Source of the DNA: an uncultured Bacteroidales bacterium
GTDB taxonomy: Bacteria; Bacteroidota; Bacteroidia; Bacteroidales; Bacteroidaceae
NCBI GenBank assembly: GCA_902779535.1
Contig: CACZBX010000001.1
Span: 62,001 to 126,000 of the forward strand
Reading direction: 5' to 3'
Length of the DNA: 64,000 bases
Part shown: positions 27,950 through 57,037 of the stretch, piece by piece
How the letters are laid out: every line of letters starts with the position of its first letter
Numbering within the stretch: position 1 is the first letter of the stretch
The notes under the pieces: generated by a model
Databases searched by the model: none
The model's input: only the letters and a program-made list of their open reading frames with translations
What the model was told of the DNA's origin: nothing
Position numbers and translations under genes: made by a program

Positions 27950-29764
27950 TCAGAACTTATTGATCTCTGCTTTAACTTTATTCACATACCGGGATGCTGG
28001 TATTTCATTCAGTTTCAGTTCATCGAACGTACTCAAGGCCCTTTCCAAATTCTTAAGGGCGGAAATGTTTCCTTTTTGCTTATATTCATTGCGCAGGATG
28101 CGAATCTTTTCATAGTCTTGGATGCCTGCAACCAATCGTTCAAAGCGAATGCAAGTGCGTCCCTCAGGATAAACCATATAAGTGTCGCCGGCTGCCCAGG
28201 TAATGAAGCGGCTGTCGAGCAATGGCTCGAGTACCCAACTGTTATAAGCCCAGCGCAGATAGCCATCAAGGTCGGCCATGGCTGCATACAATCCTAACCA
28301 CTCAGCTTCGGCCGGTGCACTAAACGTAAACGTATTCGGATAAGGCTCTGCACAGCACGTATAGAACGTTGTCACTTTTCCTTCTGCCCGACGTTTTTCA
28401 ATATCTTGTTTTGAATATTTCAGACGCAGAGGGATGCAGTAATCATCTAGTTCGCTCAGCAGTTCTTGATAAAGGTTGCCAGCCATGGAGATCTTAAACT
28501 TCGGATCAGCCTTACGGATGACCTTCAGCGTTTTCAGCATGATGTCGATAGGACGCTCGTCCATCGAGATATGTGTGATTTCAAACCAACCCTTTTCTTT
28601 CAGATGTTTAGCGAACGCAGTCAGCATAGCAGTCCACATTTCGTCGTAGGCAGCTTCTCCTGGTTGTGTCTTCACGAATTTCATCGTATTGCTGGCTTGG
28701 TCGAAGTATTGGAACGACAGAGCCCATGGAACCATGGAATAACAACCAATTTCTTTTTTGATGCCAATGCTCATCATGAACTCCACCCACTTGTCGAAAA
28801 CGGAGAAGTCGAACGACCATGTACCATCCAACTTTTTCATCCAAGTTACCATGGATTCAAAGTAATCGTAGGTTTGTCCGTTCCACGGTTTGTGCATGAT
28901 GGAAGTCGTAATCACTTTTCCTCCAGCTTGATGGTACAGCTCCATGATGGGGCGCATGGCATCAAAGTGTTCCTTGCTCCATGGCTCAACCTGATAATAA
29001 CGGGCGACGGCATACGGGTTTTGCCATAAGTCGAGGTGGAAAGCCCAGTCGTCCACCTTTGGTAAAACACGATTCTTCACATTCACTTTCAGGTTTAATT
29101 TACCCAGCAGACGATTTCCATCCTTTACGGTTACGGTGCCTGAGTAAACGCCCGACTTGATATCTTGAGGAACCCATACGCGAACCCAAGCAGGTTGAGT
29201 GTTCATAGCCGGTACCGCCAGTTCTTTAGCAAAGTGATCAATCGGGTCAGCTACCAAAGAAGAATCCCAGCGTGTTGCATCCGGTCGTTGGCCGCAAGCA
29301 CCTTTCTTATCTTTATTGAGTTCATCGGTCATGACATATCGTACAAATCCTTTGAGCAGACTGCCTTGTCCGATGCGCTCTTTTCCATTGATGAGATCGG
29401 ATACCTCGAAGGACACATGTTTCAGGTTTTCTTTTCCGTAAACGACAAACTGTGCGGCGACGCGTTCGCCTTTCCAAGCTGTCAACTCGATCGTGTTCGG
29501 GCTAAGGACGGTTGGAGGGATTTCTTTAGCGTAGCGTTCATCAACGGATGCCCATCTGACGTTTACGCCATTCACCTTGTTCCAGAGAACAGGATTCACG
29601 GCAACAGGATTAGGTAGTTCTTTGTACTCTTTCTTCGGGAACATCGGCTGCCCGGTATTCCTTCCGGCGTGTGTCACTCCATTTGCTTGTGAGAACAAAC
29701 TGAGTGGAAGGACACAGAAAGACAGGATGAGAATGAATCTCAATAAGGCAATTCTATTTTTCAT
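27950..29764 (-). CDS. GH123-family beta-N-acetylgalactosaminidase (DUF4091)
   Basis: Secreted exo-beta-GalNAc hydrolase of the family that acts on glycosphingolipid head groups. 604 residues: signal peptide (1-26, ending SLFSQ), an N-terminal beta-sandwich (about 65-230, with WKGERVAAQFVVYGKE) and a TIM barrel with the DUF4091 C-terminal part. The adjacent Asp402-Glu403 in HISMDERP are the catalytic polariser/acid pair for substrate-assisted hydrolysis. The DGYLRWAYNSW and FITWAAGDTYMVYPEG motifs are typical. Length agrees with characterised Bacteroides members (about 600). It is divergent from the GH36 gene, with which it shares an 81-base promoter region. Confidence 0.88.
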   Translation of the reverse strand: MKNRIALLRFILILSFCVLPLSLFSQANGVTHAGRNTGQPMFPKKEYKELPNPVAVNPVLWNKVNGVNVRWASVDERYAKEIPPTVLSPNTIELTAWKGERVAAQFVVYGKENLKHVSFEVSDLINGKERIGQGSLLKGFVRYVMTDELNKDKKGACGQRPDATRWDSSLVADPIDHFAKELAVPAMNTQPAWVRVWVPQDIKSGVYSGTVTVKDGNRLLGKLNLKVNVKNRVLPKVDDWAFHLDLWQNPYAVARYYQVEPWSKEHFDAMRPIMELYHQAGGKVITTSIMHKPWNGQTYDYFESMVTWMKKLDGTWSFDFSVFDKWVEFMMSIGIKKEIGCYSMVPWALSFQYFDQASNTMKFVKTQPGEAAYDEMWTAMLTAFAKHLKEKGWFEITHISMDERPIDIMLKTLKVIRKADPKFKISMAGNLYQELLSELDDYCIPLRLKYSKQDIEKRRAEGKVTTFYTCCAEPYPNTFTFSAPAEAEWLGLYAAMADLDGYLRWAYNSWVLEPLLDSRFITWAAGDTYMVYPEGRTCIRFERLVAGIQDYEKIRILRNEYKQKGNISALKNLERALSTFDELKLNEIPASRYVNKVKAEINKF

Positions 29765-29845: not shown

Positions 29846-32032
29846 ATGAAAAAGAATCTCCTTATTTTAGTTTGTTTGCTTTTATCGGTGTTATACACGA
29901 ATGCAGCAGAAAAGACATTCATCAAGGTTACCACAGATGATGTAGAAATGGTTCTGCAAGTAGGGCAGGATGGTCGGTTATATCAATCGTATTTGGGAAA
30001 GAAACTGACGCATGATGGCGACTTGGCCTTTCTTCCGATGGGTACGGAGGCTTATCTGACACATGGAATGGAAGACTATTTTGAACCGGCCATTCATATT
30101 GTACATAACGACTTTAACTCTTCTTTATTGCTGAAATATGTATCACATTCAGTCAATCAACTTTCGGATGGCGTAAGTGAAACGGTGATAACGTTGAAGG
30201 ATGACCAATATCCTGTAACCGTAAAACTTCACTATATAGCTTATGCAAAGGAGAATCTGATTAAGACGTTCACGGAGATTTCACATCAGGAAAAAAAGGC
30301 GGTAAAGTTGCAGAAATTTGCTTCTTCCATGTTGCACTTAAATCGTAGTAAGTATTTTCTTACTGAATTTGCCGGTGATTGGGCTCATGAAGTGAATATG
30401 ACAGAACAGCCTTTGAGTTTCGGTAAGAAAGTGATTGACACGAAACTCGGATCACGTGCTGACATGTTCTGTTCTCCTTTTTTCCTTTTAGCCCTGGATA
30501 AGGAGTCGGAAGAGAATAATGGAGAGGTACTGGTCGGCTCGTTGGGATGGACTGGTAATTTCCAGTTTACCTTTGAGGTAGACCAGAACAATGCACTGCG
30601 TATCATCTCTGGCATGAACCCCTACGCATCAGAATATACATTGAACCCGAATGAAGTGTTCCGCACTCCGGATTTCTATTTCACTTATAGTTGTACAGGA
30701 AAAGGACAGGCAAGTCGTAACTTCCATGATTGGGCAAGAAAATATCAGGTGAAAGATGGTGAAAAGACACGTATGACTTTGCTGAATAACTGGGAGGCCA
30801 CATATTTCAACTTCAATGAAGAGAAATTGGTGGCTTTGATGGATGATGCCGTAAAGTTAGGCGTTGACCTCTTTCTGTTGGATGATGGTTGGTTTGGCAA
30901 TAAATATCCGCGGCAAAGTGATCGGCAGGGCTTAGGCGACTGGGATGAAACGAAAGACAAGTTGCCACATGGTGTAGGTTACTTGACAGAAGCTGCGAAG
31001 AAAAAAGGCATCAAGTTTGGTATTTGGATTGAGCCGGAGATGGTGAACCCGAAGAGCGAGTTATACGAAAAACATCCGGATTGGGTGATTCATTTGCCTA
31101 ATCGTGATGAGTACTATTTCCGAAATCAATTAGTACTCGACTTGAGTAATCCGAAGGTGCAAGACTATGTCTTTGGCATTGTTGATAATCTGATGACCAA
31201 ATATCCGGAGATCGCTTTCTTCAAGTGGGATTGCAATAGTCCAATCACGAACATTTACTCTTATTACCTGAAGGAAAAGCAGACTCATCTTTATATAGAA
31301 CATGTTCGTGGCTTATACAATGTCTTAGAGCGCGTGAAAGCGAAGTACCCGAATTTGCCGATGATGTTATGTTCTGGCGGCGGTGGACGTACCGACTTCG
31401 AAGCATTGAAATATTTTACTGAGTTCTGGCCAAGCGATAATACCGACCCGATTGAGCGTTTGTTCATTCAGTGGGGATATTCACAAATCTTCCCTGCAAA
31501 GACGATGTGTGCTCATGTGACAACATGGAACAAGAACACGAGCATCAAGTTCCGTACTGAGGTGGCAATGATGTGTAAGTTGGGCTTTGATATCAAGCTA
31601 TCGGATATGGATGAAAGGGAAGCTGCATACTGTCATGCAGCAGTTGAGAACTATAATCGGCTGAAACCGGTGATCTTGGACGGAGATCTGTTCCGCTTGG
31701 TTTCTCCTTACGAAGGAAATCATACTTCATCGATGTATGTCAGCAAGGATCAGAAAAAGGCTGTCTTGTTTGCCTTCGATATTCATCCACGATATGCTGA
31801 GAAACTTTATCCGGTTCGGTTGAACGGATTGGACCCGCACAAGATGTATCGCGTAAATGAAATCAACAAGATGCAGACAATGCCGATGAGGGCTGGCATG
31901 CCAATGCGACCGGGAATGAACAATCCGCTTGATAATAAAGTGTATTCAGGAGAATATCTGATGACGGTCGGGCTGAATGTATTCAGTACACGCCAGTTGA
32001 ACAGCCGTGTGATAGAGATTGTGGCTGAATAA
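29846..32032 (+). CDS. GH36-family alpha-galactosidase
   Basis: Secreted retaining enzyme that removes terminal alpha-galactose (some relatives prefer alpha-GalNAc). 728 residues: signal peptide (1-20), N-terminal beta-supersandwich (about 25-310), TIM barrel from NWEATYFNFNE, C-terminal beta domain. Nucleophile Asp462 in FFKWDCN and acid/base Asp531 in WPSDNTDPIERL are both present, as are LLDDGWFG and GIWIEPEMV. A Met-rich loop (MQTMPMRAGMPMRPGM, about 672-687) in the C-terminal domain is unusual. Paired with the divergent GH123, it could remove the alpha-Gal below a beta-GalNAc cap in globo-series glycans. Confidence 0.93.
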   Translation: MKKNLLILVCLLLSVLYTNAAEKTFIKVTTDDVEMVLQVGQDGRLYQSYLGKKLTHDGDLAFLPMGTEAYLTHGMEDYFEPAIHIVHNDFNSSLLLKYVSHSVNQLSDGVSETVITLKDDQYPVTVKLHYIAYAKENLIKTFTEISHQEKKAVKLQKFASSMLHLNRSKYFLTEFAGDWAHEVNMTEQPLSFGKKVIDTKLGSRADMFCSPFFLLALDKESEENNGEVLVGSLGWTGNFQFTFEVDQNNALRIISGMNPYASEYTLNPNEVFRTPDFYFTYSCTGKGQASRNFHDWARKYQVKDGEKTRMTLLNNWEATYFNFNEEKLVALMDDAVKLGVDLFLLDDGWFGNKYPRQSDRQGLGDWDETKDKLPHGVGYLTEAAKKKGIKFGIWIEPEMVNPKSELYEKHPDWVIHLPNRDEYYFRNQLVLDLSNPKVQDYVFGIVDNLMTKYPEIAFFKWDCNSPITNIYSYYLKEKQTHLYIEHVRGLYNVLERVKAKYPNLPMMLCSGGGGRTDFEALKYFTEFWPSDNTDPIERLFIQWGYSQIFPAKTMCAHVTTWNKNTSIKFRTEVAMMCKLGFDIKLSDMDEREAAYCHAAVENYNRLKPVILDGDLFRLVSPYEGNHTSSMYVSKDQKKAVLFAFDIHPRYAEKLYPVRLNGLDPHKMYRVNEINKMQTMPMRAGMPMRPGMNNPLDNKVYSGEYLMTVGLNVFSTRQLNSRVIEIVAE

Positions 32033-33050: not shown

Positions 33051-33935
33051 ATGAAATTAAAGCATTTATTAATGATGGCAATTGCCGCTATGATGGTAAT
33101 GCCTTCGTGTAAAAAGGTTGAAAAAGCAGAACCGGTAAAGAAAAACATTAATGTACAGTTGTATTCTCTTCGTAGTTTGATTAACGAGGAATCTCCTATC
33201 GATTCTTTGCTGCCGAAGTTGGCTGCAATGGGTTTCACTGGCGTTGAGGCTGCTAGTTACAATGATGGTAAGTTCTATGGTAAGACTCCTGCTGATTATA
33301 AGGCAGTAGTTGAGGCTAACGGACTCAATCCATTGTCTTCACACATCAATCATGGGCTCTCTCCTGAAGAATTGGAATCAGGTGATTTCAGTGAAGCATT
33401 GAAATGGTGGGATCAATGTATTGCCGACCATAAGGCAGCTGGAATGAAATATATTGTTACTCCGTGGATGGGTTTGCAAAAGAGCATCCATGATCTGCAG
33501 GTTTATTGCGACTATTTTAATGCCATTGGTAAGAAATGTGCAGAAAACGGTATTCAATATGGTTACCACAATCATGCTTACGAATATGAGAAGGTTGAAG
33601 ACCAAGTGATGTATGACTATATGTTGGAGCACACTGATCCACAATATGTATTCTTCCAAATGGATGTATACTGGACAATGCGTGGTGGCAAGAGTCAGGT
33701 TGAGTATTTCAAGAAATACCCAGGCCGTTTCAAGATGTTACATATCAAGGACGAATGTGAGCTCGGACAAAGCGGTATGGTTGGTTTTGATGCTATCTTC
33801 AAGAACATCAAGGAAGCTGGTACAAAAGAAATCATCGTTGAGGTTGAGCGCTATTCAATGCCTGTCATTGAAAGTATTAAGGAGAGTATCGATTATCTGC
33901 TGCAGTCAGATTTCGTTCCTGCATCTTACGAATAA
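33051..33935 (+). CDS. Sugar phosphate isomerase/epimerase-like TIM-barrel lipoprotein
   Basis: A 294-residue xylose-isomerase-like TIM barrel (AP endonuclease 2 superfamily) carrying a lipoprotein signal with acylated Cys20 (MVMPSC), so it acts in the periplasm or on the surface, not on phosphorylated sugars in the cytoplasm. Barrel landmarks: VQLYSLRSL, the His of SSHINHG, GYHNHAYEYE, FFQMDVYWTM, MLHIKDE and IIVEVERY, which supply the Glu/Asp/His metal ligands. Secreted members of this group occur beside Gfo/Idh/MocA oxidoreductases and DUF1080 proteins in 3-keto-glycoside loci; both kinds are encoded elsewhere in this window. Monocistronic, with terminators before and after. Confidence 0.82.
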   Translation: MKLKHLLMMAIAAMMVMPSCKKVEKAEPVKKNINVQLYSLRSLINEESPIDSLLPKLAAMGFTGVEAASYNDGKFYGKTPADYKAVVEANGLNPLSSHINHGLSPEELESGDFSEALKWWDQCIADHKAAGMKYIVTPWMGLQKSIHDLQVYCDYFNAIGKKCAENGIQYGYHNHAYEYEKVEDQVMYDYMLEHTDPQYVFFQMDVYWTMRGGKSQVEYFKKYPGRFKMLHIKDECELGQSGMVGFDAIFKNIKEAGTKEIIVEVERYSMPVIESIKESIDYLLQSDFVPASYE

Positions 33936-33952: not shown

Positions 33953-33982
33953 AAAAAAGCCGGTAATCAAGCCGGCTTTTTT
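33953..33982. terminator. Bidirectional terminator between the isomerase gene and uxaA
   Basis: AAGCCGG (33957-33963) and CCGGCTT (33972-33978) form a GC-rich stem with A6 before and T7 after, ending both the isomerase transcript and the six-gene minus-strand operon. Confidence 0.88.
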
Positions 33983-35460
33983 TATAATGTTACTCCTGTC
34001 TTGAAAATGGAGAAATCGTGATACTCGTTCTTCTCATTCCATGCAGGATGTCCGTTGATGATATCTATAATGGCTTGTATGAACATTTGGATAACCTCAT
34101 CCATTGGCTTTTTTGTCAGAATGCCTGCATCAAAATCAATCCAATGTGGTTTGTTCTGGTATAGATTTGTATTGGTCGAGATCTTTACCGTTGGCACGAA
34201 CGTACCGAATGGTGTTCCTCGGCCTGTTGTGAAAAGAATCAGATGACAACCGCTTGCAGCCAAGGCGGTAGATGCTACAAGGTCGTTGCCTGGAGCTGAT
34301 AAGAGGTTTAGACCGGCTGTCTTTAAGCATTCTCCATATTTCAGCACATCTGTCACTTCGCTGGTTCCACCTTTTTGGGTACAGCCTAATGATTTCTCTT
34401 CTAAGGTCGAGATTCCTCCTTTCTTGTTTCCTGGCGATGGATTCTCACCAATCGGTTCACCATGTGAGAGGTAATAATTCTTGAAATCATTAATCATGTT
34501 TACTGTTTTAAGAAACAGTTGTTCATTACGGCAGCGATTCATCAAGATGGTTTCTGCTCCAAACATTTCAGGCACTTCAGTCAGGACTGCTGTCCCTCCT
34601 TGTGCGATTAGATAATCCGAGAACTCGCCGAGCAAAGGGTTGGCTGTGATTCCAGAGAATCCATCAGAGCCGCCACATTTTAACCCGACTTTCAATTCGG
34701 AGAGAGGGATATCCGTGCGTTCATCATGAAGAGTCTGATCATATAAGTCCCGAAGCACTTTCTTTCCTTCCTCAATCTCGTCGGAGACATTCTGACACAC
34801 CATGATACGGATACGCTCCTTGTCGTAGTCGCCCAACAATAAGCGGAACTTATCTGGCTGATTGTTCTCGCAACCTAATCCAACAATCAATACTCCTCCT
34901 GCATTGGGATGCAATGCCATATTCCGTAATATAATGCGGGTGTTCTCATGATCTTCTCCAAGTTGTGAGCATCCGTAGTTATGAGTAAATGCAATGAAGT
35001 TATTGCTTCCCGTTTCTTCCTTCATCTCTTCGGCAAGGCGCTGAACGACACTGTTGACACATCCCACCGTCGGAATAATCCAGATCTCATTACGGATACC
35101 TACTTTTCCGTTCTTCCGTCGGTATCCCTTAAAAGAATGATTTTCAAAAGAGTAAGGATTACTATATCTTACGGGATGATAAACATAGGTTTCTAGTCCT
35201 GACAAGTTGGTTTGTACATCTTTTTCATTTACCCATGAACCTTTAGCGATAGAATGAGTAGCCTTTCCTATGGCAAAACCATATTTGATAATCTGTTCTT
35301 CCGGTTGAAGATTCTTAATGGCTATTTTATGTCCTTCGGGAATATCTTCTTTACAGATTACAGTGGATGTTCCGACTTCTATCTGTGTTCCTCGGGGAAG
35401 GGCAGTAAGAGCAACGACCACATTATCGTTAGGATGTATTTGGATGTATGACTTACTCAT
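33982..35460 (-). CDS. uxaA: Altronate dehydratase UxaA
   Basis: Dehydrates D-altronate to 2-keto-3-deoxy-D-gluconate. The 492 residues have an N-terminal SAF-type domain (about 1-95, IQIHPNDNVVVALTALPRGT) and the C-terminal catalytic domain with TVGCVNSVVQRL, THNYGCSQLGEDHENT, VGLGCENNQ, LKCGGSDGFSGITANPLLG and ending SIFKTGVTL, near-identical in layout to E. coli UxaA. It is the last gene of the operon and overlaps uxaB by 8 bases. In E. coli its substrate comes from galacturonate through UxaC; no uxaC is present here, and the upstream genes suggest L-galactonate as the source. Confidence 0.95.
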   Translation of the reverse strand: MSKSYIQIHPNDNVVVALTALPRGTQIEVGTSTVICKEDIPEGHKIAIKNLQPEEQIIKYGFAIGKATHSIAKGSWVNEKDVQTNLSGLETYVYHPVRYSNPYSFENHSFKGYRRKNGKVGIRNEIWIIPTVGCVNSVVQRLAEEMKEETGSNNFIAFTHNYGCSQLGEDHENTRIILRNMALHPNAGGVLIVGLGCENNQPDKFRLLLGDYDKERIRIMVCQNVSDEIEEGKKVLRDLYDQTLHDERTDIPLSELKVGLKCGGSDGFSGITANPLLGEFSDYLIAQGGTAVLTEVPEMFGAETILMNRCRNEQLFLKTVNMINDFKNYYLSHGEPIGENPSPGNKKGGISTLEEKSLGCTQKGGTSEVTDVLKYGECLKTAGLNLLSAPGNDLVASTALAASGCHLILFTTGRGTPFGTFVPTVKISTNTNLYQNKPHWIDFDAGILTKKPMDEVIQMFIQAIIDIINGHPAWNEKNEYHDFSIFKTGVTL

Positions 35461-36901
35461 GGTTGATATAACTTTGGACCGTTAGCAACATTCCATTATC
35501 CTGAATAGATTTCAAATAAGTTCTTAACAGGTTGGTCAAGTTTGGAATCTCGTTGAGATCTTCATGCCAGATAAAGGTGGCAGCTAAGACACGTTGTGCA
35601 ATCTCATCGATACTCTCGGTTTTCCATAAGGACTGTACGAAGTCAAGAATATCGCTGTTGTCATTTGGTTGGATAGGAGTACCATCCTTACGCTTTCCAC
35701 CTTGGTAATAAGTGATGATGGCAGCTAAACCAAGCACAAGTCCTTTTGGTAATGTCCCTTTCCTATGCAAGTATCGTTTGAGTCCCGGTAGATCTCGAGT
35801 TTTATATTTCGGGAAAGCATTGAGCATGATGGAAGTCACTTGATGATCAACAAATGGATTGATGAACCGCTCCCATACACTTTTAGCGAATGATTCTAAT
35901 TCATCTGCTGGTAGGTTGAGTGTGCTCATCAGTTCTTCAAACATTACCTTATGAATATATTGCCCGATAATCGGGTGCTGGCAGGCGTCACGAACAATAT
36001 CGATGCCGGAAAGGAACGCGATAGGTGACAGGACGGTATGTGGACCGTTTAGCAACGTAACCTTTCGTTCGTGGTAAGGTTGTTCAGATGGGACAAACAG
36101 AACGTGCAGACCGGCTTTATCGGCAGGGAAATGTTCGGCCAATGTCTTTGGTGCTTCAATGACCCAAAGATGAAAGCATTCGGCCTCTACTAGCATGTTG
36201 TCGTCATATTGAACTCGATCTTTTAGAATATCAGCAGTCTTTTTGGGATAACCCGGAACGATTCGATCGACAAGGGTAGAGTATACGGGGCAGCATGTTT
36301 CGAACCATGTCTTAAAACCATCCTCTAATTGCCAGTGTTCAATATATTTCAGGATTGTTTCTTTCAGATGTTTTCCATTCTCGAAAATCAATTCACAAGG
36401 CATGATAAAACATCCTTTTGATAAATCACCTTTGAAATACAGATAACGATGATAGAGGAATTGTGTCAGCTTTCCAGGATAGGAAGAAGCCGGTCGATCG
36501 TTCAAGAGGCAGGAGGGGTCGAAAGCGATGCCTGCTTCTGTTGTGTTGGAGATAATAAAACGAATCTCTGGCTGTTCGGCCAACAAGAAATATTGTTCTG
36601 GATTTTGATAAGGATTGATGCCTCGGCTGACCGAATCAATCATTTCCATGGTATCGACAATGTTTCCCTGTTCAATACCTTGTAAGTGAACGTGGTATAG
36701 TCCATCCTGTTCATTCAATACAGGTACTCGACCTTCGGGGAGTGGCTGTACAATAACTACGTTACCATTAAAATCGGTCTTTTGGTTCATCTTTTGTATG
36801 ATCCAGTCGACAAAAGCCCGAAGGAAATTACCTTCACCAAACTGTACAATTCTTTCCGGGCGAATTGTTTTATGAGCGGTAGATGCGTTTAAAGATTTCA
36901 T
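35453..36901 (-). CDS. uxaB: Tagaturonate reductase UxaB
   Basis: NADH-dependent reduction of D-tagaturonate to D-altronate. 482 residues in the mannitol-dehydrogenase/long-chain polyol dehydrogenase superfamily, and clearly the UxaB branch: PERIVQFGEGNFLRAFVDW (15-33), ISNTTEAGIAFD, CELIFENGKHLKETIL, STLVDRIVPGYPK and PYHERKVTLLNGPHTVLSP line up with E. coli UxaB. Start supported by the MKSLN-PERI spacing. It follows the zinc dehydrogenase gene by 25 bases and overlaps uxaA by 8. It presumably uses the D-tagaturonate delivered by the zinc dehydrogenase. Confidence 0.95.
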   Translation of the reverse strand: MKSLNASTAHKTIRPERIVQFGEGNFLRAFVDWIIQKMNQKTDFNGNVVIVQPLPEGRVPVLNEQDGLYHVHLQGIEQGNIVDTMEMIDSVSRGINPYQNPEQYFLLAEQPEIRFIISNTTEAGIAFDPSCLLNDRPASSYPGKLTQFLYHRYLYFKGDLSKGCFIMPCELIFENGKHLKETILKYIEHWQLEDGFKTWFETCCPVYSTLVDRIVPGYPKKTADILKDRVQYDDNMLVEAECFHLWVIEAPKTLAEHFPADKAGLHVLFVPSEQPYHERKVTLLNGPHTVLSPIAFLSGIDIVRDACQHPIIGQYIHKVMFEELMSTLNLPADELESFAKSVWERFINPFVDHQVTSIMLNAFPKYKTRDLPGLKRYLHRKGTLPKGLVLGLAAIITYYQGGKRKDGTPIQPNDNSDILDFVQSLWKTESIDEIAQRVLAATFIWHEDLNEIPNLTNLLRTYLKSIQDNGMLLTVQSYINHE

Positions 36902-36926
36902 TATTATCCTTTTTTATGAGTTGTCT

Positions 36927-37946
36927 CTAATTAAACTTTACTAAGATACGGAAAAACTTTCCAGGGTTATCAACCCATTGTTTCATTGCTTCAAAAGCGT
37001 CTTCTGGTTTGACAACCTGTGAGATGAATGGTTCAATAGAGTGTCTCTGCTGCTCCAAATAATGGATAACGGCACGGAAATCACTCGGGAGAGCGTTTCG
37101 TGATCCTCGAATATCCAATTCTTTTTGAACAAATAGTTTGGTGTGGAAGGAAACATCTGATTTAGAGTATCCAATGCAAACAACTCTGCCCGTGAAACCA
37201 ACCTCGTCAACGGCCATGATGTAGGTTGACGGACTTCCAACAGCCTCTATAACCACATCAACTCCAAGGCCGTTGGTGATCTGTTCTACACGTTGATGAA
37301 CATTCTCAGTATGTGAATTGATGGTGTAGGTTGCCCCCATCTCTTTAGCCAATCCCAGTTTGTAATCGTCCAAATCCACGGCTATGACGGTCGCTCCACG
37401 CAGTGCTGAGCGTATCATTGCCCCCATGCCAACCATTCCACAGCCAATAACCATCACAATGTCATTATCAGTCACCTGTGCTCGGGAAACGGCATGAAAC
37501 CCGACACTCATCGGTTCTATCAAAGCACAATCGCGAGTCGGGATACGACTGGCAGGAATAACTTTTTCCCATGGAATGGTGATATATTCTTTCATTGCAC
37601 CATTGCGTTGCACTCCTAAGGTTTCGTTATGTTCACAAGCATTTACTCGACCATTGCGGCAGGAGGCACATTTTCCACAGTTGGTGTAAGGATTAACCGT
37701 TACGGTCATTCCTGGTTGTAAGAATGAAGGAACTTTTGGACCAGTTTTCTCAATGATAGCACCTATTTCATGTCCTGGAATAACGGGCATTAAGGCCATT
37801 TGATTTTTTCCTAAGAACGTGTTCAGATCTGATCCACAAAATCCTACATAGGTAATGCGCAAGAGAACTTCATGATCGAGTGGGGTCGGAGTGGGTAATG
37901 TTACCACATCGATTTTTCCTGGAGTAGTTATTTGAATTGCTTTCAT
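36927..37946 (-). CDS. Zinc-dependent alcohol dehydrogenase, LgoD-like (putative L-galactonate 5-dehydrogenase)
   Basis: A 339-residue medium-chain dehydrogenase/reductase. Catalytic zinc ligands Cys37, His59-Glu60 and Glu144; structural zinc Cys90, Cys93, Cys96, Cys104; NAD-binding glycine motif GCGMVG at 168-173. The GSRNALPSDF stretch near 275-284 resembles the GSRNATPEDF region of E. coli LgoD (YjjN), which oxidises L-galactonate to D-tagaturonate. Placement between a sugar lactonase (5 bases upstream) and UxaB (25 bases downstream) fits exactly that reaction. Sorbitol- and threonine-dehydrogenase-like enzymes share the fold, so the substrate assignment rests on context. Confidence 0.82.
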   Translation of the reverse strand: MKAIQITTPGKIDVVTLPTPTPLDHEVLLRITYVGFCGSDLNTFLGKNQMALMPVIPGHEIGAIIEKTGPKVPSFLQPGMTVTVNPYTNCGKCASCRNGRVNACEHNETLGVQRNGAMKEYITIPWEKVIPASRIPTRDCALIEPMSVGFHAVSRAQVTDNDIVMVIGCGMVGMGAMIRSALRGATVIAVDLDDYKLGLAKEMGATYTINSHTENVHQRVEQITNGLGVDVVIEAVGSPSTYIMAVDEVGFTGRVVCIGYSKSDVSFHTKLFVQKELDIRGSRNALPSDFRAVIHYLEQQRHSIEPFISQVVKPEDAFEAMKQWVDNPGKFFRILVKFN

Positions 37947-37951
37947 ATTTT

Positions 37952-38869
37952 TTATTCTGACATATTTTTGATATATGGTAAATCAATAGGATTCGATATG
38001 TTGTAAAACTGTATGGCGTTCTCCCCTAAGAAAAGTTGTTTTTCCTTTTCGGAAAGAACCTTTGATTTGATGATAAAGTCGTACGACATCTTGTAGGTAA
38101 TGGCTGTAATGGTTCTCGGATAGTCAGAACCCCACATTAATTTATGTATTCCCACCAAGTCGGCCGCTTGCTTGATGGCATTGATAGCACTGGGAAACGG
38201 ATAGAACTCACTATTGTATAGCCATGTAATTCCACCTGACTCAATCATTACATTCTCGTATCGGGCCAACTTAATCTGTTCTTCCCATCTCGGGATAGTA
38301 GGCATACCAAAATGCCCGATAGCAATGCGTAAGTTTGGACATTCTTGGATAACCTCACGCAACTCCTCTACTTGCAAATCGCCATCTGCCAGTGTGATGG
38401 ATAGAAAAACATGGTTCTTTTCCATTAGTTTAAACATTTCCATCATTTCAGTTGAGTTCAGATATACACGTCGTTGGTCTAACAATAATCGATGTCCTGG
38501 AATGGCAATACCATGAAATCCTTTCTCGATAAGTTTTTTTGCTTCATTGAGAAATCCGTCTTTCAAAAAATCACACATGCCGCACACAACAAAACGATTA
38601 GGATAATCTGTTGCGACCTTTCCCAGATAGTCGTTTTGGATACCGTCAATCATTTCCTGAACAACAATAGCAGCGGAAACCTGAGCATAGTCCATATTGG
38701 ACAGAAAAACTTCGGCAGAGTTAAAGCCGTCAATCATGAACGGTGGAAGCATCTGCACTTCCTCTCCTAAGAAAAGAGATCGACCATTTTGAGTGGTACG
38801 GATTTCCTTCCCATTCCAGATCGTATCTTGTTTTTGCCATAGATGGCTATGTGCATCAATGATTATCAT
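37952..38869 (-). CDS. Amidohydrolase-family sugar lactonase (COG3618; putative L-galactono/L-fucono-lactonase)
   Basis: A 305-residue TIM-barrel amidohydrolase of the COG3618 group, which includes L-fucono-1,5-lactonase, L-rhamnono-lactonase and L-galactonolactonases. Metal/catalytic residues visible: His7 and His9 in DAHSHLW, His of IAIGHFGMP, and Asp of MWGSDYPR. No signal peptide, so cytoplasmic. Placed 6 bases after the galactose-dehydrogenase-like gene and 5 before the zinc dehydrogenase, it would open the lactone made by the first to give the acid used by the second. The similarity of L-fucose and L-galactose (6-deoxy versus 6-hydroxy) means sequence alone cannot separate the two lactones. 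Confidence 0.82.
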   Translation of the reverse strand: MIIIDAHSHLWQKQDTIWNGKEIRTTQNGRSLFLGEEVQMLPPFMIDGFNSAEVFLSNMDYAQVSAAIVVQEMIDGIQNDYLGKVATDYPNRFVVCGMCDFLKDGFLNEAKKLIEKGFHGIAIPGHRLLLDQRRVYLNSTEMMEMFKLMEKNHVFLSITLADGDLQVEELREVIQECPNLRIAIGHFGMPTIPRWEEQIKLARYENVMIESGGITWLYNSEFYPFPSAINAIKQAADLVGIHKLMWGSDYPRTITAITYKMSYDFIIKSKVLSEKEKQLFLGENAIQFYNISNPIDLPYIKNMSE

Positions 38870-38875
38870 ATTGTT

Positions 38876-39808
38876 TCATGAATTTTTCCAACTGACTCTT
38901 TGTTGGTTCCCAATAATTTTTTGAACTTCTTTGACGAGTTGTTCATCCAAAGGCTCTTCAATAATTTGAATATTTTTCAAGACATTCTCTGGGTTGGCAG
39001 AACTGAAAAGCGTTGTACTGATACGAGGGTTGCTGACGGAATATTGTATTGCCAGTTTTTCAATAGGATAATTTTGTAGTTTACAGTATTCAGCAGCATT
39101 CCTACATGCTTCAACCAAAGAATCAGGTGCGGGGTGCCAATCAGGGACACCACGTGAGGAGAGAAGGCCCATTCCAAAAGGAGAGGCGTTGATTATGCCA
39201 ATATTCCTTGATTCAAAATAGTCCAGATAGTCAATGAGCTTATCATCATTTAAGCAGAAATGGCAGAAGTTTAGGATGGTCTCGACCGTTCCAGCTGGAA
39301 CATGATCAATAACCCATTGTAAGTTCTCCAATTGTAAATCGGTAATACCAACATGCTTGACGATGCCTTCCTCTTTCAGTTCAACCAATGCAGGAAGTGT
39401 TTCGTTTGCCACTTGATGTAAGTCTGCAAACTCTATGTCATGGACATTTATCAGATCAATATAGTCGATGTTCAGCCGTTCCATACTTTCATAGACACTT
39501 TCTTTGGCCCGTCTTCCAGAATAATCCCATGTGTTGACGCCATCTTTACCGTATCGCCCAACCTTGGTAGAAAGGAGATAACGGTTTCTTTGTATGTGTT
39601 TCAGTGCTTTGCCTAAAACGATCTCTGCCTTATAATGCCCATAGTAGGGGGATACATCGATGAAGTTGATGCCATGATCAAGTGCTGTATATACAGCTTC
39701 AATTCCTTTGGCTTCATTGATACTATGAAACACTCCTCCTAGTGATGAGGCTCCGAAACTTAATGCAGACACTTTCATGCCTGTCTTTCCGATTTCACGA
39801 TATTCCAT
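38876..39808 (-). CDS. L-galactose dehydrogenase-like aldo/keto reductase
   Basis: A 310-residue AKR with the catalytic tetrad Asp51, Tyr56, Lys82 and His123. Its resemblance to plant L-galactose dehydrogenase (vitamin C pathway) is unusually specific: FGASSLGGVF near 18-27, FIDVSPYYG (49-57), NVHDIEFADL (121-130), the FCHFCLNDDKLIDYL region, and ASPFGMGLLSSRGVPDWHPA match family landmarks in order. It would oxidise L-galactose (or L-fucose) C1 to the lactone with NAD(P). Its start codon overlaps the stop of the GH29 gene by 1 base (TAATG), so translation is coupled. Cytoplasmic. Confidence 0.85.
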   Translation of the reverse strand: MEYREIGKTGMKVSALSFGASSLGGVFHSINEAKGIEAVYTALDHGINFIDVSPYYGHYKAEIVLGKALKHIQRNRYLLSTKVGRYGKDGVNTWDYSGRRAKESVYESMERLNIDYIDLINVHDIEFADLHQVANETLPALVELKEEGIVKHVGITDLQLENLQWVIDHVPAGTVETILNFCHFCLNDDKLIDYLDYFESRNIGIINASPFGMGLLSSRGVPDWHPAPDSLVEACRNAAEYCKLQNYPIEKLAIQYSVSNPRISTTLFSSANPENVLKNIQIIEEPLDEQLVKEVQKIIGNQQRVSWKNS

Positions 39809-41451
39809 TATTTTCTGATTTTAAACACTGGTGCAATCTTATTTAGTTGCTTTGGTACAGTGATTACCAATCCATTTGTCGTTTGTTTGCAAGGAACTTT
39901 TCCATACCCCAACAAAGTTACCTGCTTGATAGATTTGGGATAAAGCGTTGATCCTTTTGCCAAAGAACGGATTATCACCTTCCCATCGGTCGGCCATGCC
40001 ATTGCTACAGCATACAAAGCCTTGTTTGTTTGGGTAAAACGAATCTCTTGGGCAGTGATTCCCTTATAATCTGTTTCGTTAAAACCTTGATTCTTGATAG
40101 GATTTTTAGATTCTGACGATGGGCCTTCTCCAAAGATAGAGAAAGGACGAGTGTCGTAGATACATTCTTTGTTAATTGCCATCCACTCTCCAAACTCGTT
40201 CAAAACAGCCTCTTCCTTCTCATCAAAAGTACCATCAGACCTTAAAGGAACGCTAAGCAAAAGGTTCCCGTTTTTGCTGACAATGTCAACTAACATTCGA
40301 GCAACGGTAGCAGCTGTTTTATATCGGTTGTTTTGATAGATGCTGGTGTTGTAATGCCAACCTCCTATGCATGAACAGGTTTGCCACGGTTCTTCAATGA
40401 TATTCTCTGGAATACCTCTTTCTACATCCCATACCAACGCTTTTCGTTGATTCTCATCAAGAATTTTGGTCGTCATGACAGCACCGAGTTTCCCGTTATG
40501 AGTAGCCATATAATGGTTGTAATAATGGGCTGCAATCTTCAATCCTGCATCGCTGATAGGATAAAAAGGAAGCACGGTTACATCAAAATAAACTAAGTCG
40601 GGATTATATTTGTTGATGGCGTCCAAGGTGCGATTATAGAAGTTTGTGACATATTCTTGGGTTGGTTGTGTTATTCCTCCTCCCCATGCCCATTGTCCAT
40701 GTATCATACCATTCGCCCAACTTCCTTTACTCAGTGGATGGTTTTGTGCATAGAGATCTTGTGGATCGTATCCTTCCCACCATTTACCCTTGCCGTCAGC
40801 TTTTGTCAAAGCACCATCGTAAGGTACCCCCATCTTATCTCCTTCCCGGTCATATCGTTGTGCTGGTTCATAAAATAGCCAAGCATGGTCCGCATGAAAG
40901 CTGATTCCAAAAGGTAAGCCGTTTTTCCTTGCAGCTTTTGCCCAACCATCAATCAAGTCTTTCTTTGGTCCCATATTGACAGCATTCCAAGGCTGATATT
41001 TACTATTCCAAAGGTCCATGTTGTCGTGATGGTTACCTAGTGCAACAAAATATTGAGCACCAATCTTTTTATAAAAAGCGACCAGTTTGTCTGGATCCCA
41101 TTTCTCGGCCTTGAAGAGAGGAATAATATCTTTAAAACCAACTTCAGAAGGATGTCCGTAATGTTCAACGTGATACTTATATTCCCGACTTCCTTCAATA
41201 TACATGGAACGTGCCATCCAATCGCCAGATCCTTCTACACACTGTGGTCCCCAATGTGCCCAAATACCAAACTTGGCATTGCGAAACCATTCGGGTGTCT
41301 TGTAGTTTTTCAATGAATTCCACGTTGGTTCAAATGCACCTTTAGCCATCGGCTCTTGTGATTCGGAAACCTGAACGTCATAAGATTGTCCTTTGCTTAT
41401 CGTCGTAAAGATGGTTAAACAGAAGGTCATTAATAACAATTTTTTAATCAT
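39808..41451 (-). CDS. GH29-family alpha-L-fucosidase (possible alpha-L-galactosidase)
   Basis: Secreted retaining exo-enzyme of family GH29. I place the start at 41451 (MIKKLLLMTFCLTIF, a normal signal peptide); the open frame continues 165 bases further upstream through the promoter and is not coding there. The mature protein has substrate-binding His141-His142 (GNHHDNMDLWNS) and the nucleophile Asp290 in DLVYFDV, then a C-terminal beta-sandwich (about 440-547). Members cleave alpha-L-fucosides; L-galactose is 6-hydroxy-L-fucose and some members of fucosidase families accept it. As first gene of an operon for L-galactose breakdown, it may be an alpha-L-galactosidase. Its stop overlaps the next start. 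Confidence 0.88.
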   Translation of the reverse strand: MIKKLLLMTFCLTIFTTISKGQSYDVQVSESQEPMAKGAFEPTWNSLKNYKTPEWFRNAKFGIWAHWGPQCVEGSGDWMARSMYIEGSREYKYHVEHYGHPSEVGFKDIIPLFKAEKWDPDKLVAFYKKIGAQYFVALGNHHDNMDLWNSKYQPWNAVNMGPKKDLIDGWAKAARKNGLPFGISFHADHAWLFYEPAQRYDREGDKMGVPYDGALTKADGKGKWWEGYDPQDLYAQNHPLSKGSWANGMIHGQWAWGGGITQPTQEYVTNFYNRTLDAINKYNPDLVYFDVTVLPFYPISDAGLKIAAHYYNHYMATHNGKLGAVMTTKILDENQRKALVWDVERGIPENIIEEPWQTCSCIGGWHYNTSIYQNNRYKTAATVARMLVDIVSKNGNLLLSVPLRSDGTFDEKEEAVLNEFGEWMAINKECIYDTRPFSIFGEGPSSESKNPIKNQGFNETDYKGITAQEIRFTQTNKALYAVAMAWPTDGKVIIRSLAKGSTLYPKSIKQVTLLGYGKVPCKQTTNGLVITVPKQLNKIAPVFKIRK

Positions 41452-41475: not shown

Positions 41476-41483
41476 CAAAGGTA
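41476..41483 (-). promoter_or_regulatory. -7 element of the GH29/L-galactose operon
   Basis: Minus-strand TACCTTTG matches TAnnTTTG 25 bases before the chosen GH29 start, which supports that start over the upstream in-frame ATG codons. Confidence 0.6.
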
Positions 41484-41601: not shown

Positions 41602-41628
41602 TGAACTGAAAAGCAACGATTATATATT

Positions 41629-44449: not shown

Positions 44450-45754
44450 TTATTTTAAATAATTCTTGATAAACTCATCTTTTTTCGAAACGACATTTTC
44501 TTGCCACTCTTTTTGATAGATGGGTTGTTCCATGTGATGAGCTCGATAAGGAACATCTAAGAGAATCTTTTTTCCTTTTGTTCCGTTCAGAGCGGCATGG
44601 ATGGCAGACGAAACGCAAGTAAAATCGACCAAACCAATCTCAATGACAAAGGTAGCTTTACTTCCTTTAATAATATTAGCAGCATCAAAATAGGGCATGG
44701 AGGCCTTAATGACTTCTGGGTTTTTATTAAAAGAGTAAGGATATGGCCAACAGTCTTTTCGTCCAACAATGTGTCCGCCCCAATCGCACATTGCCGGAAC
44801 TGTTGCGACCACAGCTTTTACACGAGAATCTAAACCTGCTGCTACAAGAGATTGGCCGCCACCTTGGCTCTCTCCAATGACAAGGATTCGCTTTTTATCC
44901 CACTCTGGAAATGAAGTCAAATAATCAATAGTTCGTAGCAGCCGTAAATACATACCTCTAAAGTAAACTGTATTCTTATCTTCAGCTCCTATTTGTGGGT
45001 AGTTTTTCAATTCGCCATTGGCTAATTCCTTATAGTATTTGTCAGGTTGGCCATTCAACATTCCATGAGCATTGAGATCAAAGCAGATACTTCCCATCTT
45101 TGCATATTGGATGGCACGATCAACGGTAGACTTACACCAATCACCGTCAACACCTGCTGCATGGAAAAAGATGACAATTGGTAGCGAATGCTTTTTTGCT
45201 TTGTCTGGAATTGCAAGATACCCCCTTGCTGGCTTACCACCCAAACAGTTCAATTCAATATTCTTGGTAATATAATTTTCATCGGGTGATTGAACAGGTG
45301 TTTCTGTCACTATCATCGGAAGTTTTTTTAATGCTTTCTTCTGATTTTTCCAAAAAGCTTTGAAATCTTTGGGTTGTTCTGTAACTGGTTTAAACTTGTC
45401 GGCATCAACGATTGCGCCCAAACTTGCTTTTGTCTGATCTACGTAAACTTCAACCACTATGGTGTTTGGTTCGTTTATCACCTCATCAAAGACTGTAATA
45501 GTATCTCCTGTATTCTTATATAGGTGAGTGTGGTAATTCATGTCAAATCCCTTCATTACCTTTACAGTAATAGATTCGGTTTTTGTGCCTTCTAAGAAAG
45601 TCTTCATCACGACCCTGTCACCACTTCGATAAAGTCCAGAGGAATGAGATTGGCTCATATGGATAATAGGGGAACCGACTGTCGTTGCAAAGCAAAGGTT
45701 AATTGAAATAAACAGAACCCAAGCAAACAATGTGATTTTTCTACGCATATTCAT
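44450..45754 (-). CDS. Acetyl xylan esterase-like alpha/beta hydrolase (AXE1 family)
   Basis: Exported 434-residue serine esterase. Signal peptide at about 1-24; an N-terminal beta-sandwich (about 30-115) of the kind placed before AXE1/CE7-like hydrolases in Bacteroidetes; alpha/beta hydrolase core from 125 on. Catalytic triad: Ser296 in GESQGGG, Asp377 in IGLVDFTC, and His406 or His407 in YRAHHMEQ. The oxyanion region is FFHAAGVDGD. It would remove acetyl groups from plant or host polysaccharides. It lies 56 bases downstream of the DUF1080 gene in the same direction, possibly cotranscribed, with a strong hairpin between. Confidence 0.82.
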   Translation of the reverse strand: MNMRRKITLFAWVLFISINLCFATTVGSPIIHMSQSHSSGLYRSGDRVVMKTFLEGTKTESITVKVMKGFDMNYHTHLYKNTGDTITVFDEVINEPNTIVVEVYVDQTKASLGAIVDADKFKPVTEQPKDFKAFWKNQKKALKKLPMIVTETPVQSPDENYITKNIELNCLGGKPARGYLAIPDKAKKHSLPIVIFFHAAGVDGDWCKSTVDRAIQYAKMGSICFDLNAHGMLNGQPDKYYKELANGELKNYPQIGAEDKNTVYFRGMYLRLLRTIDYLTSFPEWDKKRILVIGESQGGGQSLVAAGLDSRVKAVVATVPAMCDWGGHIVGRKDCWPYPYSFNKNPEVIKASMPYFDAANIIKGSKATFVIEIGLVDFTCVSSAIHAALNGTKGKKILLDVPYRAHHMEQPIYQKEWQENVVSKKDEFIKNYLK

Positions 45755-45810: not shown

Positions 45811-47079
45811 TTATAATGTTTTAATATGAATGTTTCTCCATAAAACCTTGATGCCTCCACCATCATGGATTTGCAAACAAATACGACCATGACCTTTACC
45901 AATCTTCTCATCAGTAAAGTTGATCATTTGTTCACCATTCAACCATGTTTGAATATTGTCACCAACTAAACGAATCTTCATTGTATTCCATTCACCATAC
46001 TTTAAGATACTCTCTTTTTCATCTGGGATCTGAATCAGCCATCCACGGCCATAAGATTCATAAACGCCACCAGTATCATGTCCAGGAGGCGCTACCTCTA
46101 CTTGCCAACCATTTACTTTGGCTTTTCCTTCGACAATAGAGCGGATGAATACACCAGAATTACCTTCAGCTTCTTGTTTGAACTCTAAAGTCAATTCATA
46201 GTCATCATAATATTTATCAGTACCGAAATAGCCATATTCTTTTTCTGGACCACTCTCACAAACCAACAAACCATCTTTTACATACCATAACTCGCTTCCG
46301 TAGTTGATCCAACCAGACAAATCTTTTCCGTTGAATAAATCAGCTTCATAAGTCTTGCGTGGAAGTTCCTTAATTTTGATGTTTCTGAACCATGCAGGAT
46401 AACCATGATCTTGTAAACAGATCAAACCTTTTGTTGCCATACCATACTCACGAGCATCTGCCCATTTGCCGGCAGCTTTACGTTTGAACCAATCCTCTGT
46501 CCAAGCATCAAACTCCACCAACTTCTTGCCGTTTAAGAAATAAACAACATGACCGTTATCAAAGATAATCTTTGAAGTGTTCCATTGGCCAGCAGGCTTT
46601 AAGTCGCGTGTGTTGAAATCAGGAACATACATAGCGTAGTCTGCACCACAACGTTGCCAATCTTCCAATGGCTCTGGGAAGTTTTCATCATCAATCAACT
46701 GATATTCAGGTCCGGTAACATAAGGAACTTTGAATTGCGGACGTTCTACGACGTGGTACATCATACCGCTGTTGCCACCCTTAGAGATTTTCCAATCCCA
46801 AACAAGTTCGAAATTCTCATATTCTTTATTCGTGACGATATAGCCATTGGCATCGCTTCCACCGCCATCTGCCTTAATTGTACCGTCAACGACCTCCCAT
46901 GGTCCAGTTAACGCGTCACCATTATAATCACGCCAGCCATTAAGGCTTGTTCCGTCAAATAACAATTCCCAACCGTCTGCCATTTCTTGGGCTGTTAAGG
47001 TATTTTGTTTACCTTCACAAGAGGAAAATAAGAAAGGAATTGCCAGTGCAAAAGATAGATTTCTTAATAAATTCTTCAT
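45811..47079 (-). CDS. Tandem DUF1080 (3-keto-disaccharide hydrolase) lipoprotein
   Basis: A 422-residue lipoprotein (acylated Cys20 in FLFSSC) with two concanavalin-like DUF1080 jelly-roll domains, about 37-235 (WELLFDGTSLNGWRDY...) and 243-422 (ADLFNGKDLSGWINYG...), each with the GNSGMMYH / GNSGVFIR strand and the late WNTSKIIFDNGHVVYFLNGK / WNTMKIRLVGDNIQTWLNGE strand. Pfam has renamed DUF1080 as 3-keto-disaccharide hydrolase, after enzymes that split 3-oxidised disaccharides. So this protein may release a 3-keto sugar or bind glycans outside the cell. It is upstream of an acetyl-esterase-like gene. Confidence 0.88.
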   Translation of the reverse strand: MKNLLRNLSFALAIPFLFSSCEGKQNTLTAQEMADGWELLFDGTSLNGWRDYNGDALTGPWEVVDGTIKADGGGSDANGYIVTNKEYENFELVWDWKISKGGNSGMMYHVVERPQFKVPYVTGPEYQLIDDENFPEPLEDWQRCGADYAMYVPDFNTRDLKPAGQWNTSKIIFDNGHVVYFLNGKKLVEFDAWTEDWFKRKAAGKWADAREYGMATKGLICLQDHGYPAWFRNIKIKELPRKTYEADLFNGKDLSGWINYGSELWYVKDGLLVCESGPEKEYGYFGTDKYYDDYELTLEFKQEAEGNSGVFIRSIVEGKAKVNGWQVEVAPPGHDTGGVYESYGRGWLIQIPDEKESILKYGEWNTMKIRLVGDNIQTWLNGEQMINFTDEKIGKGHGRICLQIHDGGGIKVLWRNIHIKTL

Positions 47080-55734: not shown

Positions 55735-55750
55735 TTCAAAATATAATAAA

Positions 55751-57037
55751 ATGGCTACAAATAGAAGAACATTTTTAAAAACATTGGGAGGACTTGGGTT
55801 ATTTACCATCGTCCCTCGTCGCGTATTGGGTGGAAACAATCACGTTGCCCCCAGTGACCAATTAACAAAAGGTATCATCGGTGTTGGTGGTATTGGTAAG
55901 AGTTCCTATCATTTCACCAGTGATGAAAAGTGTAGATTGGTAGCTGTTTGTGATGTAGATGAAAATCATCTGAAACAAGCAGTGGATATGGCTAAGTCAA
56001 AGTTTAATGAATCGGTTCAAACTTATCATGACTTTCGTGACTTGATTAAGGACCCGAATGTTGATGTAGTTCATATTGCGACACCTCCACATTGGCATGC
56101 CCTAATGGCTATTGAAGCTGCAAAGGCAGGCAAGGATATATGGTGTGAGAAACCGATGACTCGTACTATCGGCGAAGGAAAACGGGTAATTGAGGCTGTC
56201 AACCGATACAAACGGATTTTCCGTTTAAATACTTGGTTCCGTTTTACCGATACTTTCTATGGGCTTGGAACGACTGTTCAGCCTTTGAAAAAACTAGTAG
56301 ACAGTGGCTTGCTTGGTTGGCCTTTGAAAGTCGTCGTTTCAGGAACGACTGGTTTTACATGGAAGTTCTTTTGGGTTGGCCAAGAAAATCTGGAGCCACA
56401 ACCTGTACCAAAAGGCTTCGACTATGATATGTGGTTAGGACCGGCTCCATTCAAACCTTATCATGTTCATCGTACTCATCAAACATTCCGCGGATATTGG
56501 GACTATGATGGTGGTGGCTTAACAGATATGGGTCAGCATTATTTGGATCCTGTTCAGTATTTGCTTGGTAAGGATAAAGAACTGCCGATAAAGGTTGAGG
56601 TAGATGCTCCGCAACAACATCCAGATGCAGTGGGAATCTGGCACAAGATTACCTATACGTATGCTGATGGTTGCCAAATCATACTTGAAGGTGAAGGTTT
56701 CGAAAGTAAGGGAGATACAGCTTATATTGAAGGACCAAAAGGAAAGGTATACAAGGGTTTCCGTTGCACAATCCCAGATATCATGAACAAGTTGGCTGAG
56801 TATCCTGACCCAGAGCCTCAACGCACTGATTTTATCGAATGTATTCATACTCGTCAAAAGTTCGCTTTGAACGAAGAAAATGGTCATCGTAGTTGTACAT
56901 TGGTGAACATGGGAGCTGTTGCACTTCGATTAGGACGCCAGGTTTTGAATTTTGATCCGGTGAACCAACTATTTATCGGTGATGATGCTGCTAATGCATT
57001 GGTTGACCAACCGATGCGTGGACCTTGGAAAATATAA
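55751..57037 (+). CDS. Tat-exported Gfo/Idh/MocA-family oxidoreductase
   Basis: NAD(P)-dependent sugar oxidoreductase. I use the ATG at 55751, which gives the twin-arginine signal ATNRRTFLKTLGGLGLF; an earlier in-frame ATG at 55715 lies inside rnr. 428 residues: Rossmann domain from KGIIGVGGIGKSS, the CEKPMTR motif (Lys is catalytic in the family), and the C-terminal sheet with GGGLTDMGQHYLD. Tat export lets it fold with tightly bound cofactor in the cytoplasm first, as in glucose-fructose oxidoreductase. Relatives next to DUF1080 genes oxidise sugars at C3, so it may form or reduce 3-keto sugars. The HEAT/DUF1080 gene follows after 24 bases. Confidence 0.88.
   Translation: MATNRRTFLKTLGGLGLFTIVPRRVLGGNNHVAPSDQLTKGIIGVGGIGKSSYHFTSDEKCRLVAVCDVDENHLKQAVDMAKSKFNESVQTYHDFRDLIKDPNVDVVHIATPPHWHALMAIEAAKAGKDIWCEKPMTRTIGEGKRVIEAVNRYKRIFRLNTWFRFTDTFYGLGTTVQPLKKLVDSGLLGWPLKVVVSGTTGFTWKFFWVGQENLEPQPVPKGFDYDMWLGPAPFKPYHVHRTHQTFRGYWDYDGGGLTDMGQHYLDPVQYLLGKDKELPIKVEVDAPQQHPDAVGIWHKITYTYADGCQIILEGEGFESKGDTAYIEGPKGKVYKGFRCTIPDIMNKLAEYPDPEPQRTDFIECIHTRQKFALNEENGHRSCTLVNMGAVALRLGRQVLNFDPVNQLFIGDDAANALVDQPMRGPWKI

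Follow-up and report, generated by a model that had tools for sequence, protein, structure and literature searches.

Which sugar is served by a run of six closely spaced genes in an uncultured Bacteroidales bacterium is the question raised by a 64,000-nucleotide stretch of its draft genome (the window; positions 62001-126000 of contig C1; G000, 2.32 Mb, 64 contigs, 82% complete). Open reading frame (ORF) coordinates agreed with a preliminary description, made from the sequence alone, of six minus-strand genes, separated in coordinate order by gaps of -8, 25, 5, 6 and -1 bases. These encode, from first to last gene, a GH29 glycosidase predicted to be exported (39808..41451; PF01120 and Fucosidase_C), an aldo-keto reductase (AKR) assigned as L-galactose 1-dehydrogenase (38876..39808; PF00248 and PDB matches), a probable L-galactonolactonase of the amidohydrolase family (37952..38869; PF04909, amidohydrolase 2, and neighborhood), a zinc-dependent dehydrogenase of the medium-chain dehydrogenase/reductase (MDR) superfamily, hereafter ZnDH, as probable L-galactonate 5-dehydrogenase (36927..37946; PF08240 and PF00107, motifs and neighborhood), the tagaturonate reductase UxaB (35453..36901; PF01232/PF08125, Mannitol_dh, and NF002969) and the altronate dehydratase UxaA (33982..35460; PF08666/PF04295/PF20629, SAF/GD_AH, and likeness to Escherichia coli UxaA). 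Our answer, to which we assign a probability of roughly 0.88, is that the operon catabolizes L-galactose from α-L-galactosides, uniting the pathway of Bacteroides (Phocaeicola) vulgatus, the lower branch and a GH29 enzyme in one operon.

The AKR matched PDB entry 7LH6, termed ‘L-galactose dehydrogenase’ by its depositors, at 230 of 310 residues (74% identity, E = 1e-163). Four further PDB sequences of that name (five distinct in all) matched at E values of 5.7e-98 to 9e-84, and the next AKR in the PDB followed at 3.1e-27. 7lh6 is the AKR of Phocaeicola plebeius DSM 17135 (locus L050, 310/310 identical). The closest relatives with named records, among the best 80 of 557, came from uncultured Phocaeicola and Bacteroides and were 78-80% identical. 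Further along the operon, UxaB scored 619.5 bits with the NCBIfam tagaturonate reductase model NF002969 (cutoff 359) and is 43% identical to its E. coli counterpart, while UxaA shares 55.6% identity with E. coli UxaA versus 34.1% with GarD, favoring the altronate dehydratase side. ZnDH carries GFCGSD, GHE and four-Cys motifs. The assignment of a route from L-galactose to 2-keto-3-deoxygluconate (KDG) is well supported.

In the proposed mechanism, exported GH29 would trim terminal α-L-galactosyl residues, the AKR would convert L-galactose to L-galactonolactone and the amidohydrolase would open this lactone to L-galactonate. ZnDH would then form D-tagaturonate, UxaB would convert it to D-altronate and UxaA would convert D-altronate to KDG. 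The operon contains no kinase, aldolase, transporter or regulator gene; KDG kinase and 2-keto-3-deoxy-6-phosphogluconate (KDPG) aldolase, encoded elsewhere in the genome, would yield pyruvate and glyceraldehyde-3-phosphate. All catalytic activities in this organism are predicted from sequence, and the six genes are expected to be cotranscribed and induced together.

KDG can probably be finished in G000 because KDG-kinase-like and KDPG aldolase genes are present on a second contig, C23. They neighbor UxaC (C23:7485-8876; PF02614, 679.5 bits), as do the mannonate dehydratase UxuA (TIGR00695, 390 bits, cutoff 199.55) and a UxuB-like protein scoring below the cutoff of the fructuronate reductase model. 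The aldolase is of the 4-hydroxy-2-oxoglutarate (KHG)/KDPG type (376 bits, cutoff 275). The sugar kinase scored best, but below cutoff, with the model for the kinase portion of a fused KHG/KDPG aldolase-kinase, and we call this protein KDG-kinase-like by likeness and position, its NCBIfam scores all lying below cutoff. UxaC is thus missing from the operon, as the preliminary description had remarked, but not from the genome. In the 82% complete draft, UxaA gave one match, the operon copy, and UxaB is the one tagaturonate reductase found, the next match being 23% identical and located on C23. Galacturonate, if used, would therefore very likely pass through the UxaB and UxaA of the operon, which would also take tagaturonate made from galacturonate by UxaC. 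With UxaC on C23 and the only uxaB and uxaA copies found in the operon, the earlier argument that galacturonate is an unlikely substrate fails; barring further copies in the 18% of the genome that the draft lacks, the two enzymes probably serve galacturonate too.

The neighborhood search proposed in the preliminary description covered the loci of the best 80 of 557 AKR relatives, with gene counts that are lower bounds because many loci end at contig ends. AKR, lactonase and ZnDH genes co-occurred in 77 of the 80 loci and the lactonase accompanied the AKR in 78, while UxaB and UxaA were both present in at least 15 and a GH29 of ≥60% identity in 7. All six gene types formed one run in two loci, L028 and L033. 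Regulators of the AraC type (20/80) and LacI type (25/80) also occurred. Arrangements varied: in L053, AKR, UxaB and UxaA genes share one strand and those for ZnDH and lactonase lie on the opposite one; L038 and L074 encode AKRs of 76% and 75% identity with no lactonase or ZnDH gene within 9-kb flanks, so that the dehydrogenase may be used on its own there. A GH31 (L028, 6297-8957) and a GH97 (L008, 3740-5635) beside relatives’ L-galactose operons hint at further α-linked sugars.

We also surveyed 151 genomes of the family, including G000 itself, which was set aside in the linkage counts; kinship among genomes was left uncorrected. AKRs matching at E 1e-120 or better occurred in 72 of the 151 genomes and GH29 proteins at E 1e-120 in 59. 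UxaB and AKR were found together in 56 of 75 genomes, and in a proximity test with one UxaB copy per AKR-bearing genome (n = 56), UxaB lay ≤12 kb from the AKR in only 7, so it usually serves from elsewhere. This pattern, together with UxaC in the genome and UxaB and UxaA found only in the operon, would suit an operon mainly devoted to galacturonate (pectin), degraded by way of UxaB and UxaA, in which the L-galactose genes would form a side branch. We regard that alternative as unlikely, as the first four operon genes would make no sense for galacturonate and the AKR-lactonase-ZnDH core recurs far more often among the relatives’ loci than UxaB with UxaA.

The best PDB matches of the GH29 enzyme were 7snk, 7ljj and 7lnp (E = 7.5e-81 to 8.7e-80), followed by 4ni3 (1.1e-52). 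The nearest solved relatives are thus entries of BpGH29, described in the available text of PMC12316285 as the α-L-galactosidase of a porphyran polysaccharide utilization locus. Window GH29 and BpGH29 share 194 of 491 residues (39.5%), and 401 of 545 residues are identical between window GH29 and a second P. plebeius GH29 (locus L008). Asp290, the presumed nucleophile, aligns with the position occupied by Asp in 7ljj and by Asn in 7lnp. A loop in window GH29 is ~29 residues longer than that of BpGH29, and the L008 protein has the longer loop too. Both proteins replace the BpGH29 motif KFGIFIHWG with KFGIWAHWG, and WFD is replaced by YFD. These positions presumably line the pocket around carbon 6, as in fucosidase structures. 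The 80 loci contain 15 GH29-family ORFs, of which 11 carried KFGIWAHWG, one carried KFGIFIHWG and three matched neither pattern; YFD was seen in five, its pattern matching nothing in the other ten.

Across genomes, the distribution of GH29 followed that of the AKR. The 81 GH29 places fell, with the G000 copy set aside, into three identity bands of 34, 14 and 32 copies. For the clade at ≥60% identity, the AKR was present in 29 of 33 genomes versus 42 of 117 others (Fisher p = 8e-8, with kinship uncorrected), and 15 of 34 copies lay ≤12 kb from the AKR, all 15 on the same strand. At 54-60% identity, 10 of 11 genomes contained the AKR and 1 of 14 copies was near it; below 54%, the AKR was present in 21 of 26 genomes. 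As a control, the window GH36 at 38 places of ≥57% identity, own genome excluded, had the AKR in 17 of 38 genomes and none of its 38 copies near it. This proximity control did not use a second G107 piece, two partial G125 pieces, a row at 54% identity or any row below it; considering all 71 GH36 genomes, the AKR occurred in 35, with no association. Several GH29 matches (26 of 81) sit in open frames of ≥1000 amino acids. One 1408-residue ORF adjoining L-galactose genes (L058, 4755-8981) combines a GH29 (~51-52% identical to window GH29) with three DUF5013 stretches, and L056 (717-4943) has an ORF of equal length; the domain scan covered the L058 copy only.

The family-wide linkage makes plausible the earlier proposal that a complete L-galactose pathway comes with its own glycosidase: the assignment of the steps from L-galactose to KDG has good support, and the GH29 part gains its plausibility from this linkage, which points to a specificity for α-L-galactosides. 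The operon GH29 is probably an α-L-galactosidase of a clade distinct from BpGH29 and directed at a different glycan. More specifically, its clade could be a class of exported α-L-galactosidases separate from BpGH29 and from those of GH95, in which the loop preceding the nucleophile strand is longer and the pocket may be remodeled, and which would feed land-plant L-galactose (for example, from L-galactosylated xyloglucan, corn xylan or rhamnogalacturonan II (RG-II)) into a gut-bacterial operon merging L-galactose and galacturonate catabolism; we see the odds on this fuller proposal as evenly split.

Several observations weigh against the L-galactose assignment and its extension to the glycosidase. 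According to the available text of PMC11189522, the sequence-network cluster of BpGH29 is not isofunctional and has xyloglucan fucosidases among its members, so family likeness leaves the sugar of GH29 undecided and the enzyme could be a fucosidase. GH29s below 54% identity also lie near the AKR (12 of 32 copies, with 3 of the 12 on the opposite strand); nearness alone is thus not clade specific, and the connection with L-galactose may extend beyond the clade. For the lactonase, the PDB gave a single match, at an E value of 1.2e-5, and thus no close solved relative. ZnDH falls below all listed NCBIfam cutoffs and is only 32% identical to E. coli LgoD over 274 amino acids, so its role rests on neighborhood. 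The ‘LgoD-like’ label given to it earlier was loose, and we rejected ZnDH as an LgoD orthologue, the two having the MDR superfamily in common. Two genes frequent among relatives are missing from the window operon, namely a FucP-type major facilitator superfamily (MFS) transporter like that of L008 (42/80 loci) and a rhaM-like mutarotase (21/80 loci); homologues of the L008 transporter in the 82% complete G000 are only 32% and 35% identical. The distance of UxaB from the AKR in most genomes belongs here as well.

Some of these points would fit a nonphosphorylating L-fucose operon, in which GH29 would be an ordinary fucosidase and the AKR, lactonase and ZnDH would act on L-fucose derivatives. 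The Pfam label of GH29 is Alpha_L_fucos, the BpGH29 cluster includes fucosidases, as cited above, and the transporter of the L008 relative is FucP by NCBIfam (328 versus 280; the L008 mutarotase belongs to PF05336). The AKR, at 74% identity to a solved L-galactose dehydrogenase, speaks against L-fucose, and the lactonase reached only 36.1 bits with the NCBIfam L-fucono-1,5-lactonase model NF052480, an equivalog model with a cutoff of 400. Tagaturonate reductase and altronate dehydratase genes come next in the operon, and oxidation of L-fuconate at C5 would yield no uronate for UxaB and UxaA. No fuconate dehydratase was detected by Pfam among the six operon genes, and no genome-wide search for this enzyme was made. 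With the lactonase far below the model cutoff and UxaB and UxaA downstream, we rejected an L-fucose pathway as very improbable.

An intrinsic terminator reported earlier after uxaA (33953..33982, minus strand) was recovered, its stem 11 pairs long and its tail rich in T; because an A-run precedes and a T-run follows the stem, the convergent gene at 33051-33935 may use it as well. Upstream, TACCTTTG lies exactly where the preliminary description had placed a promoter (41476..41483, minus strand), with 24 bases between the box (41483-41476) and the GH29 ATG, and resembles the Bacteroidota -7 consensus. TAnnTTTG matched 81 times in the window versus 63.9 ± 8.2 expected, a count reached in 5 of 100 shuffles. 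At this modest excess over chance, the promoter remains a motif match and weak evidence, and we rejected the box as proof. A sigma-70 scan of the window was uninformative (35 sites versus 34.7 expected). We took the ATG at 41451 as the GH29 start (protein start MIKKLLLMTFCLTIFTT...), the mechanical ORF extending to a TTG at 41616; the resulting N terminus is signal-peptide-like by eye, so the enzyme is probably exported.

Beyond the operon, the window encodes scattered glycan enzymes (GH30, GH20, GH123, GH36 and an AXE1-type esterase; 6816-8258, 25363-27420, 27950-29764, 29846-32032 and 44450-45754). Parts of a route for 3-keto-glycosides seem to be represented by a pair of PF06439 proteins (3-keto-disaccharide hydrolase; one of them has HEAT repeats), an oxidoreductase of the Gfo/Idh/MocA type and a TIM barrel resembling xylose isomerase (45811-47079 on the minus strand and 55715-57037, 57062-60271 and 33051-33935 on the plus strand). 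The TIM-barrel gene, at 33051-33935, adjoins the operon and could suggest a dual L-glucose/L-galactose route like that of Luteolibacter LG18 (LguA, LguD, LguC and LguB), whose LguA, according to the available text of PMC12632266, groups with L-galactose dehydrogenases and whose lower steps are the same. That gene is convergent and outside the operon, however, and scored 50.8 with myo_inos_iolE (cutoff 290). L-glucose use would need the 4-epimerase LguG, for which the genome was not searched, and the same source describes the B. vulgatus (BVU) enzymes as using L-glucose and L-gluconate very inefficiently. We give this route hardly any credence.

The L-galactose pathway itself is not a discovery, because it has been reported for B. 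vulgatus and, in P. plebeius, is encoded near porphyran enzymes and a GH29 α-L-galactosidase. What may be new is a GH29 clade that tracks the L-galactose genes across genomes, a candidate new α-L-galactosidase specificity in a family that Pfam names after α-L-fucosidase. The presence of the AKR in 72 of 151 genomes indicates that the B. vulgatus route is widespread, in some cases packed together with the lower branch and a glycosidase. In the titles and abstract openings of the papers listed, most subscription papers being outside the search, we found no published GH29 adjoining these genes. PMC13204991 was rejected as a pathway source; the portion available concerns anhydro-galactose, another pathway.

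Among known systems, the B. vulgatus route is the same as that proposed for the window in its AKR dehydrogenase, lactonase, L-galactonate dehydrogenase and entry at D-tagaturonate. Its lactonase is reportedly BVU_0220. BVU_0219 and BVU_0222 were reported as L-galactose and L-galactonate dehydrogenases, with D-tagaturonate as an intermediate of L-galactose catabolism (Hobbs et al. 2014, doi 10.1021/bi500656m, as cited in the available text of PMC12632266), and the accessible part of PMC4396506 likewise credits Hobbs 2014 for the bacterial L-galactose dehydrogenase. In the window operon, uxaB, uxaA and GH29 are joined to this set. E. coli LgoD, UxaB and UxaA lead from L-galactonate through tagaturonate and altronate to KDG, as in the window, but that route begins at L-galactonate and the window route at L-galactose. 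The P. plebeius DSM 17135 operon (L050) runs AKR-lactonase-FucP-type MFS-ZnDH-UxaB-UxaA; the window retains the order AKR-lactonase-ZnDH-UxaB-UxaA, to which P. plebeius adds the MFS gene and a mutarotase-like gene. BpGH29 (Bacple_01702) lies 31 kb from this operon on one contig, separated from it by a stretch that includes two porphyranase-like genes, so an α-L-galactosidase and the L-galactose pathway are already near each other in a studied gut bacterium. We identified the P. plebeius protein of 597 amino acids as BpGH29 from two checked 7snk stretches and equal chain length; the gene beside it encodes a sulfatase, and an iron-containing alcohol dehydrogenase gene adjoins both (L112, 753-1925). 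A further α-L-galactosidase, BACOVA_03438 of gut Bacteroides, is reported to free L-galactose from dietary corn xylan (PMC4491172, in the text available) and differs from window GH29 in its family (GH95) and inverting mechanism. Closest to the window in content are L028, from an uncultured Prevotellaceae metagenome-assembled genome (MAG), and L033, from an uncultured Alistipes MAG, which, like the window, have the six gene types together in a single run; unlike the window, both additionally carry an AraC-type regulator and an MFS gene, L028 also has a mutarotase-like gene and the GH31, and the GH29 of L033 is divided between two ORFs.

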